33,304 bases of DNA. It comes from Veillonella sp. VA142 (GTDB lineage: Bacteria; Bacillota; Negativicutes; Veillonellales; Veillonellaceae). This document shows positions 26,458 through 29,089 of this stretch, piece by piece. The stretch lies in NCBI RefSeq assembly GCF_003992135.1, contig NZ_RQVN01000018.1, positions 1 through 33,304 of the forward strand. The letters are read 5' to 3'. Within the stretch, counting starts at the first letter, position 1, and every line of letters begins with the position of its first letter. The notes beneath the pieces are model-generated. The model ran no database searches and was not told the origin of the DNA. It saw nothing but the letters and a program-made list of their open reading frames with translations. A program made the translations under genes and the position numbers.

Positions 26458-28128
26458 TTATGCTTCGTCTAGGATTTCGATAGCACCTTGTGCCGCAGAG
26501 GATACATGCATAGCATATTTTTTCAAGTATCCTGTCACATCTGATTTATACGGTGTTAAGTTTGCTTTTCTTCGTTCAATTTCTTCCTCTGAAAGTTTCA
26601 CATTCAAGGAACGATTTGGAATATCGATTTCGATGATATCTCCATCTTCTACGATGGCGATAGTGCCACCAGATGCTGCTTCTGGAGATACGTGACCAAT
26701 GGAGGCGCCACGTGTAGCACCAGAGAAACGACCATCTGTAATCAAGGCTACGTCTTTACCAAGACCCATACCTGTGATTGTCGCTGTTGGTGTCAACATT
26801 TCACGCATACCTGGACCACCTTTTGGACCTTCGTAGCGAATGATGACTACATCACCTTTCACAATTTTGTGACCCATGATCGCTTCTACCGCTTCTTCTT
26901 CGCTGTTGAATACTTTCGCTGGACCAGAGTGAACCAGCATTTCTGGATCTACAGCGCCTTCTTTCACAACGGAACCATCTGGAGCCAAGTTACCTTTCAA
27001 TACAGCGATACCACCTGTAGTATACACTGGATCGCTCCAAGGATGGATCACATCTTCGTCTAGGACTTTCACAGTTTTTGCAATCGTACCTTGGTCCACC
27101 AAGCTCACAGATTTTGCACTTTCATGCAAGTGACCTTGTTCTTGTAAACGGTGCATCACCGCATACACACCGCCTGCGGCATGTAAATCTTCGATGAAAT
27201 ATTTACCAGATGGAGACAATTTCGCCAATTGTGGGGTCTCTCCTGCAATGCGGTTGAAATCATCCAATGTTAAAGACACGCCCGCTTCATGAGCGATAGC
27301 TGGTAAATGTAATGCTGTGTTGGAAGAACCGCCCAATGCCATATCAACTGCTACCGCATTTTCAAAGGCTTCTTTCGTCAATACATCTTTTGGACGTAAG
27401 CCTTCTTGTAAGACCTCCATTACTTGCATACCCGCACGTTTTGCTAGACGCAAACGCTCGGAGTAAACCGCTGGGATGGTCCCATTACCTGGTAATGCCA
27501 TACCCAATGCTTCTGTTAAGCAGTTCATGGTGTTCGCTGTGTACATACCAGAGCAAGATCCGCAAGTTGGGCATGCTACGTTTTCAATATGTTCTAATTC
27601 TTCTTCGGAAATTAATCCTGCTTCAAATTTACCAACTGCTTCAAACACGTCGGATAAACCAATTTTTTTACCATTGTGCACGCCTGCTAACATAGCGCCA
27701 CCAGAAACGAACACAGATGGTAAGTTTAAACGAGCAGCGGCAATCAACATACCTGGCACGACTTTATCGCAGTTAGGAATGAATACCATTGCATCGAATG
27801 GTGTGGCCATCGCAGAAGCTTCGATGGAGTCAGCAATGATATTGCGTGTTACCAAGGAATATTTCATACCGATGTGGTTCATAGCCAATCCGTCACAAAT
27901 ACCGATGGTATTAAATTCCATAGGAATACCGCCAGCCTCGCGGATGCCATCTTTCACAGACTGTACAAGATTTTTTAAATGCACATGACCTGGAATAATT
28001 TCATTGAAAGAATTGGCAATCCCGATGATTGGTTTTCCAATTTCCTCGTTGATAAATCCTAATGCTTTTAATAATGAACGATGTGGAGCTCTTGTAGCCC
28101 CTTTTGCTACTCTATCACTGCGTACCAT
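26458..28128 (-). CDS. ilvD: Dihydroxy-acid dehydratase
   Basis: Iron-sulfur enzyme dehydrating dihydroxy acids to 2-oxo acids, the third common step. 556 residues. Cluster cysteines are Cys120 in NCDK and Cys192 in CPTCGSCSGM. The segment PGHVHL near residue 49 has no cysteine, as in the E. coli oxygen-labile 4Fe-4S type (comparison from memory). First structural gene of the operon, with AGAAAGGATC before the ATG and an attenuator upstream. Confidence 0.96.
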   Translation of the reverse strand: MVRSDRVAKGATRAPHRSLLKALGFINEEIGKPIIGIANSFNEIIPGHVHLKNLVQSVKDGIREAGGIPMEFNTIGICDGLAMNHIGMKYSLVTRNIIADSIEASAMATPFDAMVFIPNCDKVVPGMLIAAARLNLPSVFVSGGAMLAGVHNGKKIGLSDVFEAVGKFEAGLISEEELEHIENVACPTCGSCSGMYTANTMNCLTEALGMALPGNGTIPAVYSERLRLAKRAGMQVMEVLQEGLRPKDVLTKEAFENAVAVDMALGGSSNTALHLPAIAHEAGVSLTLDDFNRIAGETPQLAKLSPSGKYFIEDLHAAGGVYAVMHRLQEQGHLHESAKSVSLVDQGTIAKTVKVLDEDVIHPWSDPVYTTGGIAVLKGNLAPDGSVVKEGAVDPEMLVHSGPAKVFNSEEEAVEAIMGHKIVKGDVVIIRYEGPKGGPGMREMLTPTATITGMGLGKDVALITDGRFSGATRGASIGHVSPEAASGGTIAIVEDGDIIEIDIPNRSLNVKLSEEEIERRKANLTPYKSDVTGYLKKYAMHVSSAAQGAIEILDEA

Positions 28129-28327: not shown

Positions 28328-28359
28328 AAAAAAGGGCGACCCCTGAGGAATCGCCTTTT
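28328..28359 (-). terminator. ilv operon attenuator (terminator with alternative pairing)
   Basis: On the minus strand AAAAGGCGA (28351-28359), an 11-base loop, UCGCCC and six U form an intrinsic terminator about 200 bases before ilvD. Its 5' arm can instead pair with GAGGUCGCCUUUU (28454-28466), inside the leader peptide gene. That pairing is longer (nine continuous pairs UCGCCUUUU/AAAAGGCGA plus GAGG/CCUC) and would prevent termination. A further pair AUUGUUAG/CUAACAAU within the leader gene could act as the protector stem. Confidence 0.78.
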
Positions 28360-28430: not shown

Positions 28431-28538
28431 CTAAGATGGTAGCTCTACCGAAGAAAAGGCGACCTCTATGGAATTGTTAGTTCTAATGACGTTCACTACT
28501 AAGAACAGGACGAGCACGAGAATTGCTAACAATGCCAT
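28431..28538 (-). CDS. ilv leader peptide (attenuator peptide)
   Basis: A 35-codon gene with AAAGGAGA seven bases before its ATG. It begins MALLAILVLVLFLVVNVIRT; 13 of the first 18 residues are Leu, Ile or Val, the end products of the downstream pathway. The antiterminator lies in codons 25-29, just beyond the control codons, so a ribosome stalled for lack of charged tRNA would leave it free to pair. This is the arrangement of ilvL/ivbL leaders in Proteobacteria (established); its use here is inferred. Confidence 0.8.
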   Translation of the reverse strand: MALLAILVLVLFLVVNVIRTNNSIEVAFSSVELPS

Positions 28539-28752
28539 GATAATCTCCTTTCTGTACAATATGCGTACAAATCGTAACTATAAGTGTAATACTTTAAAAA
28601 TAAAATAACTGTCTACTATTGTAACACCTTTGTCCACTGTGTGCAAGTACATATCTATATTTTTTTACTCTTTCAGATGTGTTATTTTTCACAATCTGTT
28701 ATACTATAAGTGTTACTTCCCCTATACTGGTAACAGAGAGGGGGTGAGATTT

Positions 28753-28848
28753 GTGAAATTAATACTCCTTACTCTTTTTATCTCGATTACGGCAAATGTC
28801 CTCGCTTACTACATTTGTAAATGGCTAGATCGAGTATTTAAGAAGTAA
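28753..28848 (+). CDS. 31-aa membrane peptide of a par/Fst-like type I toxin-antitoxin locus
   Basis: A GTG start with GAGAGGGGGTGAG upstream. The product (M)KLILLTLFISITANVLAYY, then ICKWLDRVFKK, is one transmembrane helix followed by a charged tail, as in Fst/Ldr toxins. Two direct repeats flank a bidirectional terminator: GGTGAG(A/C)TTTGTGAAAT at 28743-28759 and 28917-28933 (16 of 17 identical), and TTACTCTTTTT at 28769-28779 and 28939-28949. A convergent RNA would therefore be complementary to the ribosome binding site, start codon and early codons, as in the pAD1 par locus. Confidence 0.78.
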   Translation: MKLILLTLFISITANVLAYYICKWLDRVFKK

Positions 28849-28880
28849 CTAGCCTAGCCTTGTCAGCTATATAGACAAAT

Positions 28881-28916
28881 AAAAACACCCAGGTCTAGCC
28901 ACCTGGGTGTTTTTTT
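28881..28916. terminator. Bidirectional terminator of the par-like locus
   Basis: AAAAACACCCAGGT / ACCTGGGTGTTTTTTT with a six-base loop: 14-bp arms with A and T runs on both sides, so it works for both converging RNAs. Confidence 0.88.
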
Positions 28917-28954
28917 GGTGAGCTTTGTGAAATCACCATTACTCTTTTTCGCTT
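28881..28954 (-). ncRNA. Predicted antitoxin RNA (RNA II-like) of the par-like locus
   Basis: A possible promoter TTTTAT (28984-28989), a 17-base spacer and TACAAT (28961-28966) would start a ~75-base RNA. It contains the complements of both direct repeats and ends at the shared terminator. The size fits RNA II of par. The -35 is weak; the repeats and terminator are the main evidence. Confidence 0.65.
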
Positions 28955-28986
28955 GTCTAAATTGTATCATAAATTGTAAAAAAATA

Positions 28987-29016
28987 AAACCCCACGGTTG
29001 GCAGACCGTGGGGTTT
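28987..29016 (-). terminator. Terminator of the GltD-like gene
   Basis: AAACCCCACGGT / ACCGTGGGGTTT with a six-base loop; on the minus strand it is followed by TATTTTTTTAC. Confidence 0.85.
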
Positions 29017-29089
29017 CTTTTGCTTGTAAATGGAAATCATCAACTTTATTCCAAATCCATTATATCACAGGTTAATAAAAATTTAAATC

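Follow-up and report, generated by a model that had tools for sequence, protein, structure and literature searches.

A probable par-like type I toxin-antitoxin locus of Veillonella and the antitoxin-like units adjoining it at the ilvD-gltD site

In the window, that is, the whole stretch of 33,304 nucleotides from Veillonella sp. VA142 that was analysed, a small locus with a short reading frame is flanked by an ilvD-like and a gltD-like gene (Pfam). The initial annotation described it as a par/Fst-like type I toxin-antitoxin locus: a 31-codon membrane peptide, two pairs of direct repeats on either side of a 14-bp bidirectional terminator, and a possible convergent promoter. Does the locus share the design of pAD1 par beyond chance, and what is the second antitoxin-like unit (28987-29067), which adjoins it on the right and to which the stem at 28987-29016 belongs? 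The initial annotation had not recognised that stem as part of another such unit. The peptide, both repeat pairs and the terminator were all found in their places, and the first repeat (DRa, 28743-28759) does span both the ribosome binding site and the GTG start. The convergent promoter is borne out as a sequence motif only, an extended -10 on the minus strand. The features of the locus (record L001, which starts at window position 27253) and of its neighbour are as follows.

28697-28705, plus strand: extended -10 of the toxin mRNA (TGTTATACT), a motif found in the window
28711-28914, plus strand: RNA I-like toxin mRNA of about 205 nt, predicted from its promoter and terminator
28712-28718, plus strand: 5' arm GTTACTT, complement of the stop-codon region 28843-28849 (AAGTAAC), from the minimum free energy fold and family covariation
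28743-28759, plus strand: first block of DRa, covering Shine-Dalgarno and start codon, from repeat comparison
28753-28848, plus strand: reading frame of the toxin-like peptide MKLILLTLFISITANVLAYYICKWLDRVFKK, 31 codons, GTG start, stop codon included
28769-28779, plus strand: second block of DRa (TTACTCTTTTT), codons 6-9, from repeat comparison
28881-28914, both strands: bidirectional terminator with a perfect 14-bp stem and the 6-nt loop CTAGCC, from a stem search
28881-28955, minus strand: RNA II-like antitoxin A1 of about 75 nt, predicted from its promoter and terminator
28917-28933, plus strand: first block of DRb, from repeat comparison
28939-28949, plus strand: second block of DRb, from repeat comparison
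28961-28969, minus strand: extended -10 of antitoxin A1 (TGATACAAT), a motif found in the window
28987-29016, both strands: terminator of A2, 12-bp stem, loop TGGCAG, which may also end gltD transcripts
28987-29052, minus strand: predicted orphan antitoxin A2 RNA, about 66 nt
29021-29050, plus strand: orphan direct repeat of A2, resembling the T2 (L013) start region by alignment and duplex energy
29059-29067, minus strand: extended -10 of A2 (TGATATAAT), a motif found in the window

DRa and DRb are identical at 16 of 17 positions in the first block and at 11 of 11 in the second, and the stretch GGGGGTG forms the ribosome-binding site ahead of the GTG at 28753. The predicted toxin mRNA folds at -59.6 kcal/mol (z -3.7 against shuffles) with its Shine-Dalgarno paired, and in this fold the 5' GUUACUU pairs with AAGUAAC at the stop codon. 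Promoter-like sites are not in excess in the window alone (4, against 3.7 in shuffles), and an Rfam scan of the window gave no match at gathering scores. The locus is placed beyond chance by the seven loci of the genome and by the tests of cognate against swapped repeats in 126 and 245 loci, which are given below. On the ilvD side a Leu/Val/Ile-rich leader peptide (MALLAILVLVLFLVVNV...; 28431-28559, minus strand) and then a terminator (28335-28355, minus strand) precede the ilvD-like gene; by their arrangement they look like a classical ilv attenuator.

The locus is very probably a type I toxin-antitoxin system that works like pAD1 par, with transcription, toxicity, antitoxin action and the order of binding all inferred. 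An mRNA of about 205 nt would encode the 31-residue membrane peptide, and a convergent antisense RNA of about 75 nt would end at the same bidirectional terminator. The antisense RNA would first contact the mRNA at the terminator loops, and DRb-DRa pairing over the ribosome-binding site and the first codons would then block translation. Until that pairing the mRNA would be held inactive by its fold, with the 5' end on the stop region and the Shine-Dalgarno paired. The anatomy, the cognate complementarity, the covariation and, as motifs, the promoters were observed directly; there are no transcript or toxicity data, and any function of A2 is inferred. The likeness to par geometry noted from the window alone can be upheld to this extent: the design features that can be read from DNA are present, and both the repeats and the pairing of 5' end and stop region covary across the family.

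A peptide search of the window genome (a 65-contig draft, completeness 99.84%) found seven loci of the same layout, the window locus included, each with a reading frame, a 12-14-bp terminator and its own direct repeat. Predicted duplexes of start region and antitoxin average -33.1 kcal/mol in the seven cognate pairs (weakest -24.1; -36.4 for window A1 with its own toxin) and -15.9 kcal/mol in the 42 non-cognate pairs of the genome. The exception among the latter is the L003 start region with the window antitoxin (-29.8 kcal/mol). Since each locus has its own repeat, the paralogues appear to be largely insulated from one another. L002 and L003 also have a common stem, AAAAAGCACAG...CTGTGCTTTTT, upstream of the toxin promoter, which resembles the terminator of L002's own unit.

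The search for homologous repeat-terminator-repeat loci that had been proposed as a check thus found many, these seven among them. The relatives share the peptide core YYICKWLD. With a seven-row profile every one of the six genus genomes gave a match, as did 112 of 300 genomes sampled from the class; the latter fall in 30 of 97 genera. A 78-row profile matched 20 of 398 genomes across the phylum, 6 of the 20 from the same class, and some of these matches are weak or false. The best 80 matches with named relatives include Veillonella, Selenomonas, Phascolarctobacterium, Gemella, Faecalibacillus, Lachnospiraceae and Erysipelotrichaceae, and relatives also occur in Clostridia. Viral contigs contain 47 loci. 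Plasmids yielded 294 records at E <= 1, mostly weak enterococcal matches; all four plasmid regions that were checked have the repeat-terminator-repeat order. Enterococcus faecium plasmid and viral-contig versions (L288 on CP142861.1, L284, L285) have the core AEVAAHYICKWLD, and no gene is annotated beneath the CP142861.1 match in the collection's table. At L115 (G281:C3) and L148 (G490:C23) three to four toxin loci stand in tandem, and L115 has, in addition, extra antitoxin-like units that lack a toxin.

The match between repeats is specific to the locus in most relatives. The cognate repeat score exceeded the 99th percentile of swapped pairs in 99 of 126 loci, a set that goes back to 158 matches (150 distinct, 129 of them with a plausible ribosome site and 126 with a terminator). 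In a wider set of 245 loci (293 distinct matches, minus 43 without a ribosome site and 5 without a terminator or cut off) it did so in 193: 23/24 from the genus, 68/99 from the class, 59/66 from named genomes, 26/32 from viral contigs, 13/19 from the phylum, 4/4 from plasmids and 0/1 from the Fst-model search. Near-identical orthologues were present in the swapped controls and raised their upper tail. One of the 19 phylum rows, L153, is an antiporter and a false positive.

Homologues that keep the peptide and lose the repeats had been named as a case that would refute the par reading, and at first sight a minority of relatives meets it. When 236 loci were scored with wider flanks at the 99th percentile, 167 had the repeat downstream only, 15 upstream only, 4 on both sides and 50 on neither. 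The 15 therefore do not lack a repeat but have it upstream instead. The 50 count against the par reading; 39 of them score 24-29 downstream against a threshold of 29. Twelve of the upstream-repeat loci come from family f14, two from a Selenomonadaceae bin and one from a Lachnospiraceae bin. At L145, L052, L139, L190 and L081 the antitoxin is predicted to form a gene of its own, which lies back-to-back with the toxin and has a terminator and a promoter motif to itself. Judging from these sequences the arrangement is a layout variant without a shared terminator, found in a minority of relatives. At the tandem loci L118, L120 and L226 the upstream repeat may be a neighbour's.

Promoter motifs and mRNA folding were followed across 237 loci (identical peptides, long reading frames and short flanks dropped), 188 with a strong repeat. 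The antitoxin extended -10 lies on the predicted stretch and strand in 76% of the 187 that have enough flank; shuffles gave 8% and the opposite strand 7%. The toxin extended -10 is present in 72% of the 188 loci and 7% of shuffles; opposite strands are at background. The 5' arm matches its own stop region with a mean cognate rank of 0.79, and 70/237 loci exceed the swapped 95th percentile. The controls gave 0.52 (13/237) for the 5' arm against a stretch of the reading frame and 0.58 (25/237) for the stretch before the Shine-Dalgarno against the stop region. By this covariation and the predicted fold, the pairing of 5' arm and stop region is the putative counterpart of the 5' upstream helix of par. 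An H-type pseudoknot of loop cytosines and Shine-Dalgarno was also considered and is not claimed, because the 5' arm against the Shine-Dalgarno gave no signal (mean rank 0.514); a local stem before the Shine-Dalgarno reached 0.621 (11/237).

The ilvD-gltD site was compared in six species of the genus with one genome each (G000-G005, G000 being the window genome). All six have a family toxin there; the site of G004 is split over two contigs, and the toxin of G003 is a different one. G000 and G001 have the same repeats. In G004 GTGAAA is changed to ATGGAA in both repeats, and in G002 and G005 both repeats are replaced. Between G000 and G002, DRa differs at 14/36 positions and DRb at 16/38 (30/74 in total), compared with 9/181 elsewhere (leader, rest of the reading frame, up to the terminator; Fisher p 1.4e-11, with the 5' end of the antitoxin, 5/22 differing, left out). 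G005 and G002 are distinguished by one T/C difference that is mirrored in both repeats. Unmirrored changes also occur (2/36 in DRa and 3/38 in DRb between G000 and G004; 3 and 2 between G002 and G005). Divergence of DRa is accompanied by change in DRb and in the first residues of the toxin. In the sequences compared, both repeats change together while most of the locus stays constant.

The site also contains more antitoxin-like units than toxins. From the toxin onwards the orders are T1a-A1a-A2 in G000, T1a-A1a in G001, T1b-A1b-A2-A1a in G002, T2-A2-A1b in G003, T1a'-A1a'-A2 in G004 and T1b'-A1b'-A2-A1b in G005, i.e. one toxin and up to two extra units per site, with seven extra units in five of the six species. 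Six of the seven fit the toxin of a sister species far better than the adjacent one. Window A2 is predicted to pair with T2 of the sister species G003 at -32.0 kcal/mol and with its neighbour T1a at -14.0. The other A2 units give -40.1 (G004), -33.1 (G005) and -45.4 (G002) with T2, and -16.2, -21.9 and -14.6 with their own neighbours. The third unit of G002 reaches -35.1 with T1a and -22.6 with neighbouring T1b, and the orphan of G003 -38.6 with T1b of G002 and -12.5 with neighbouring T2. The third unit of G005 pairs at -35.6 with T1b, yet at -29.1 with its neighbour. The shuffled background for these duplexes has a mean of -14.4, a first percentile of -24.4 and a minimum of -28.2 kcal/mol. 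In the A1 kinds the terminator loops follow the pairing: the G002 orphan shares CTAGCC with T1a of G000 and of G001 (CTCGCC in G004), and the G003 orphan shares CTGACC with T1b of G002.

Compared by duplex energy with all 28 toxins found across the six genomes, every A2 pairs best with T2 of G003. The alignment score of window A2 is not striking: T2 ranks first of 245 start regions, barely, with 26 (next 25, 25 and 24). The assignment therefore rests on the duplexes and on the 90% identity over some 90 nt between window A2 and the A2 beside T2 in G003. With the seven toxins of its own genome window A2 reaches only -14.0 to -19.4 kcal/mol, and it looks like an antitoxin without a cognate among them; since the genome is a 65-contig draft, a cognate in an assembly gap is not excluded. 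G004 and G005 each encode, away from the site, a T2-like toxin with which their A2 gives -28.0 and -28.2, respectively. These values lie near the best shuffled one, so that on duplex energies a weak trans role is not excluded there. L028, a locus without a downstream repeat, was tried as a target of the site's antitoxins in trans and rejected (-22.9 and -22.6).

A1-like DNA was found in the six genus genomes and, outside them, as one 19-nt match (28 genomes of the family searched). A2-like DNA occurs at the ilvD-gltD site of five genus genomes and weakly beside another toxin of G001. Outside the genus it was found in G162, beside a T2-like toxin (85% over 57 nt). The G162 contig (L351, G162:C2) has identical 1335-bp ends and is for this reason probably a circle of 4550 bp. 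It encodes a MobA/MobL relaxase, a 492-residue protein without a Pfam match and the T2-like toxin locus, and judging from these genes is probably a small mobilisable plasmid. Window A2 pairs weakly with its toxin (-23.6 kcal/mol; -43.0 for that toxin's own antitoxin). No plasmid DNA resembling either the A1-A2 stretch or the G162 plasmid was matched.

Solo units are not confined to this site. A unit in G178 (L041) is 94.5% identical over 91 nt to the unit of a G128 toxin and gives -45.1 kcal/mol with that toxin, compared with -18.4 and -25.8 with the two other G178 toxins examined; its nearest toxin-like frame, some 700 nt on, has no usual start codon after the ribosome site. L034 and L115 have an extra copy of their own antitoxin. 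Three further candidates were rejected: at L136 and L176 the repeats do not favour the proposed toxin, and the unit at L155 is that locus's own.

A2 is most simply a remnant of an earlier toxin at the site. The toxin cassette would have been replaced and the displaced antitoxins retained downstream, which fits the order leader, toxin, own antitoxin, older antitoxins. We propose, with slightly less than even confidence, that ilvD-gltD is a type I toxin-exchange site: cassettes would replace the toxin behind a conserved promoter and leader, displaced antitoxins would be stacked immunities (the immunity is inferred), such toxins would also travel on small plasmids, and specificity would drift as in allelic recognition. 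It remains quite possible, though we lean against it, that recombination left A2 and the other extra units behind without any function, with A2 at most a gltD terminator. Any toxin swap would be expected to leave such units, and only six species were compared. The -10 of A2 begins 22 bp after the gltD stop codon, on gltD's strand, and from this position its stem may simply end gltD transcripts. The A2 loops do not follow the toxin (TGGCAG in the window, TAGCCG in T2), and the alignment lead of 26 over 25 is slight. Against mere leftovers stands, besides the better fit of six units to sister toxins, that TGNTATAAT is retained in all seven, 40-49 nt away from the stem. The mismatches in the stems of the G002 A2 and the G003 orphan are A-C on the plus strand and G-U on the antitoxin strand, and both stems therefore still pair in the antitoxin RNA. 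Whether selection has retained the orphans is open. The kept promoter motif and pairing stems speak for it; the youth of the units, the sample of six species and the possible role of the A2 stem in ending gltD transcripts speak against it. The best-ranked open-access literature yielded no account of orphan type I antitoxins stacked behind a toxin that had been exchanged, with subscription papers mostly outside the scope.

The par reading of the window locus also depends on its peptide, which was said to differ from Fst. It does, in that neither Fst model (NF033608, PF13955) matches the window peptide at the curated cut-off, and a search of the single peptide against Pfam and NCBIfam gave nothing useful. 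The traits of the Fst/Ldr superfamily, a transmembrane helix (best 15-residue hydropathy 2.37), a conserved W and a charged C-terminus, are present. Among 78 relatives W is conserved in 74 and K in all 78, and of the 74 that have KW, 33 carry no net charge after it. The helix motif P/D/S/TxxxG is not met by the window peptide (SITAN, without the glycine) and is complete in 23/78 relatives; in Fst of pAD1, Pro and Gly of PxxxG are essential, according to PMC7472228.

NF033608 matches 9/78 relatives at E <= 1 (best 1.1e-4) and PF13955 one, at 0.096. Single members score 9.9-21.7 bits with NF033608, below its cut-off of 26. One CKWLD-type peptide that is not among the 78, L295 (G109:C2), passes with 29.2 bits; it has a longer helix and a 17-nt exact repeat downstream. 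Because of this peptide the CKWLD clade touches the Fst family at the level of sequence models, and L295 appears to link the CKWLD-type and P-type Fst clades. A profile-profile comparison with P-type Fst peptides was in register and not significant (probability 3.9%, E 0.011). Other Pfam families, e.g. phage holin (13/78, best 0.002), match the peptides as weakly as Ldr/Fst or better. With five peptides, PHROGs gave only weak matches to phrog_738, a family of unknown function; the best, 2.9e-5, came from a viral relative. Four weak matches to solved structures (best E 0.33) were taken as chance.

The initial annotation also expected that a par design in a diderm Negativicute would widen the family. 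This holds for the peptide clade; the kind as such is not wholly new there, since NF033608 already passes its cut-off in 6/150 class genomes, five through P-type peptides and one (G109) through L295. It has no match in the window genome. P-type peptides of the Fst model (e.g. APLIVG...YWLNH) are found in Negativicutes at L290, L291, L304, L294, L297 and L308-L312. G093 and G067 each have several of them; most start with TTG, and not all reach the NF033608 cut-off. Downstream repeat scores at P-type loci are 26-35, without a swapped control. Type I systems of the Fst kind are thus not new to Negativicutes; the peptide clade, the repeat diversity and the extra antitoxin units are. No paper on type I or Fst systems in Veillonella or Negativicutes was found among the best-ranked open-access literature, and most subscription literature was outside the scope.

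The peptide might be no toxin at all but a small membrane protein that regulates, for instance, a transporter or the envelope and is itself translationally tuned by a cis antisense RNA. Toxicity data are lacking, the window peptide is without the glycine of the Fst motif, and within the par family only the founder has a verified function, plasmid stabilisation, according to PMC7472228. Seven mostly insulated paralogues, plasmid copies (one beside a relaxase gene) and viral contigs nevertheless have the look of addiction modules, and we consider a non-toxic peptide unlikely. More doubtful still is that the locus belongs not with Fst/par but with the C. difficile type I systems (NF047374), which have convergent genes, a 3' overlap and long complementarity. 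That model does match more relatives at E <= 1 than the Fst model (32/78, best 6.1e-5, compared with 9/78), but its best score is 24.6 bits against a cut-off of 60 and it does not match the window peptide, whereas one relative passes the Fst cut-off and repeats over the start site are a par feature. An ordinary terminator, a spurious reading frame and an accidental repeat brought together by chance can practically be ruled out, for although the repeats are short and promoter-like sites in the window are no commoner than in shuffles, the locus recurs in 245 loci, most with locus-specific repeats, and the tests of cognate against swapped repeats refute it.

With the par-like reading preferred, the family amounts to a par-type clade, largely below current model cut-offs, that is spread over diderm and monoderm Bacillota, and to many naturally matched and mismatched RNA pairs, seven of them in the window genome, that could reveal rules of antisense specificity. 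If ilvD-gltD does exchange toxins, each species would carry one toxin and a standing RNA immunity to the toxins of its sisters. Immunity to incoming addiction modules is one proposed role of chromosomal toxin-antitoxin systems (PMC12548467). One toxin placed before antidotes to other species' toxins makes such an anti-addiction role testable by reporter fusions.

Among known systems the closest is pAD1 par (fst/RNA I/RNA II) with its chromosomal homologues. Convergent genes, a shared bidirectional terminator, DRa/DRb over the translation start, a Shine-Dalgarno paired in the mRNA, a 5' end in a helix and a membrane peptide of about 30 residues are common to both. The W at the helix end is found in the window clade as in most of the par family, whereas Fst of pAD1 has V. 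The window clade differs in its core YYICKWLD, in SxxxN/S/G instead of PxxxG, in several paralogues with differing repeats, in the extra antitoxin units adjoining and, in a minority, in an upstream antitoxin with its own terminator. A sequence that would fit a YUNR U-turn, CUAG, stands in the window terminator loop and is by eye absent in several paralogues; not every par homologue has such a motif (PMC7472228). The NF033608 P-type loci (e.g. L290, L294) come from the same bacterial class and have short, mostly TTG-started peptides and downstream repeats, but form a mostly separate peptide clade.

The C. difficile type I systems (CD2517.1-RCd8, NF047374) likewise combine a short membrane peptide with a convergent antisense RNA. 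Their toxins have 50-53 residues and a lysine-rich tail, and their convergent transcripts a long complementary overlap, as described in PMC6563280. The longer peptide, the tail and the long transcript overlap set them apart from the window locus.

For A2 the nearest parallel is solo OrzP of E. coli (zor/orz), according to its authors the first known widespread solo type I antitoxin (PMC11264685). Like A2, it is an RNA gene for a type I antitoxin, retained in the absence of the toxin. In the case of OrzP the toxin is simply absent, whereas at the ilvD-gltD site a different family toxin is in place, and the orphans fit the toxins that sister species carry there. Polymorphic toxin systems (CDI, Rhs) contain orphan immunity genes, with a new toxin in front and the old antidotes kept behind. 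Their antidotes are proteins of contact-dependent competition, whereas the orphan units of the ilvD-gltD site would be RNAs of an intracellular system.
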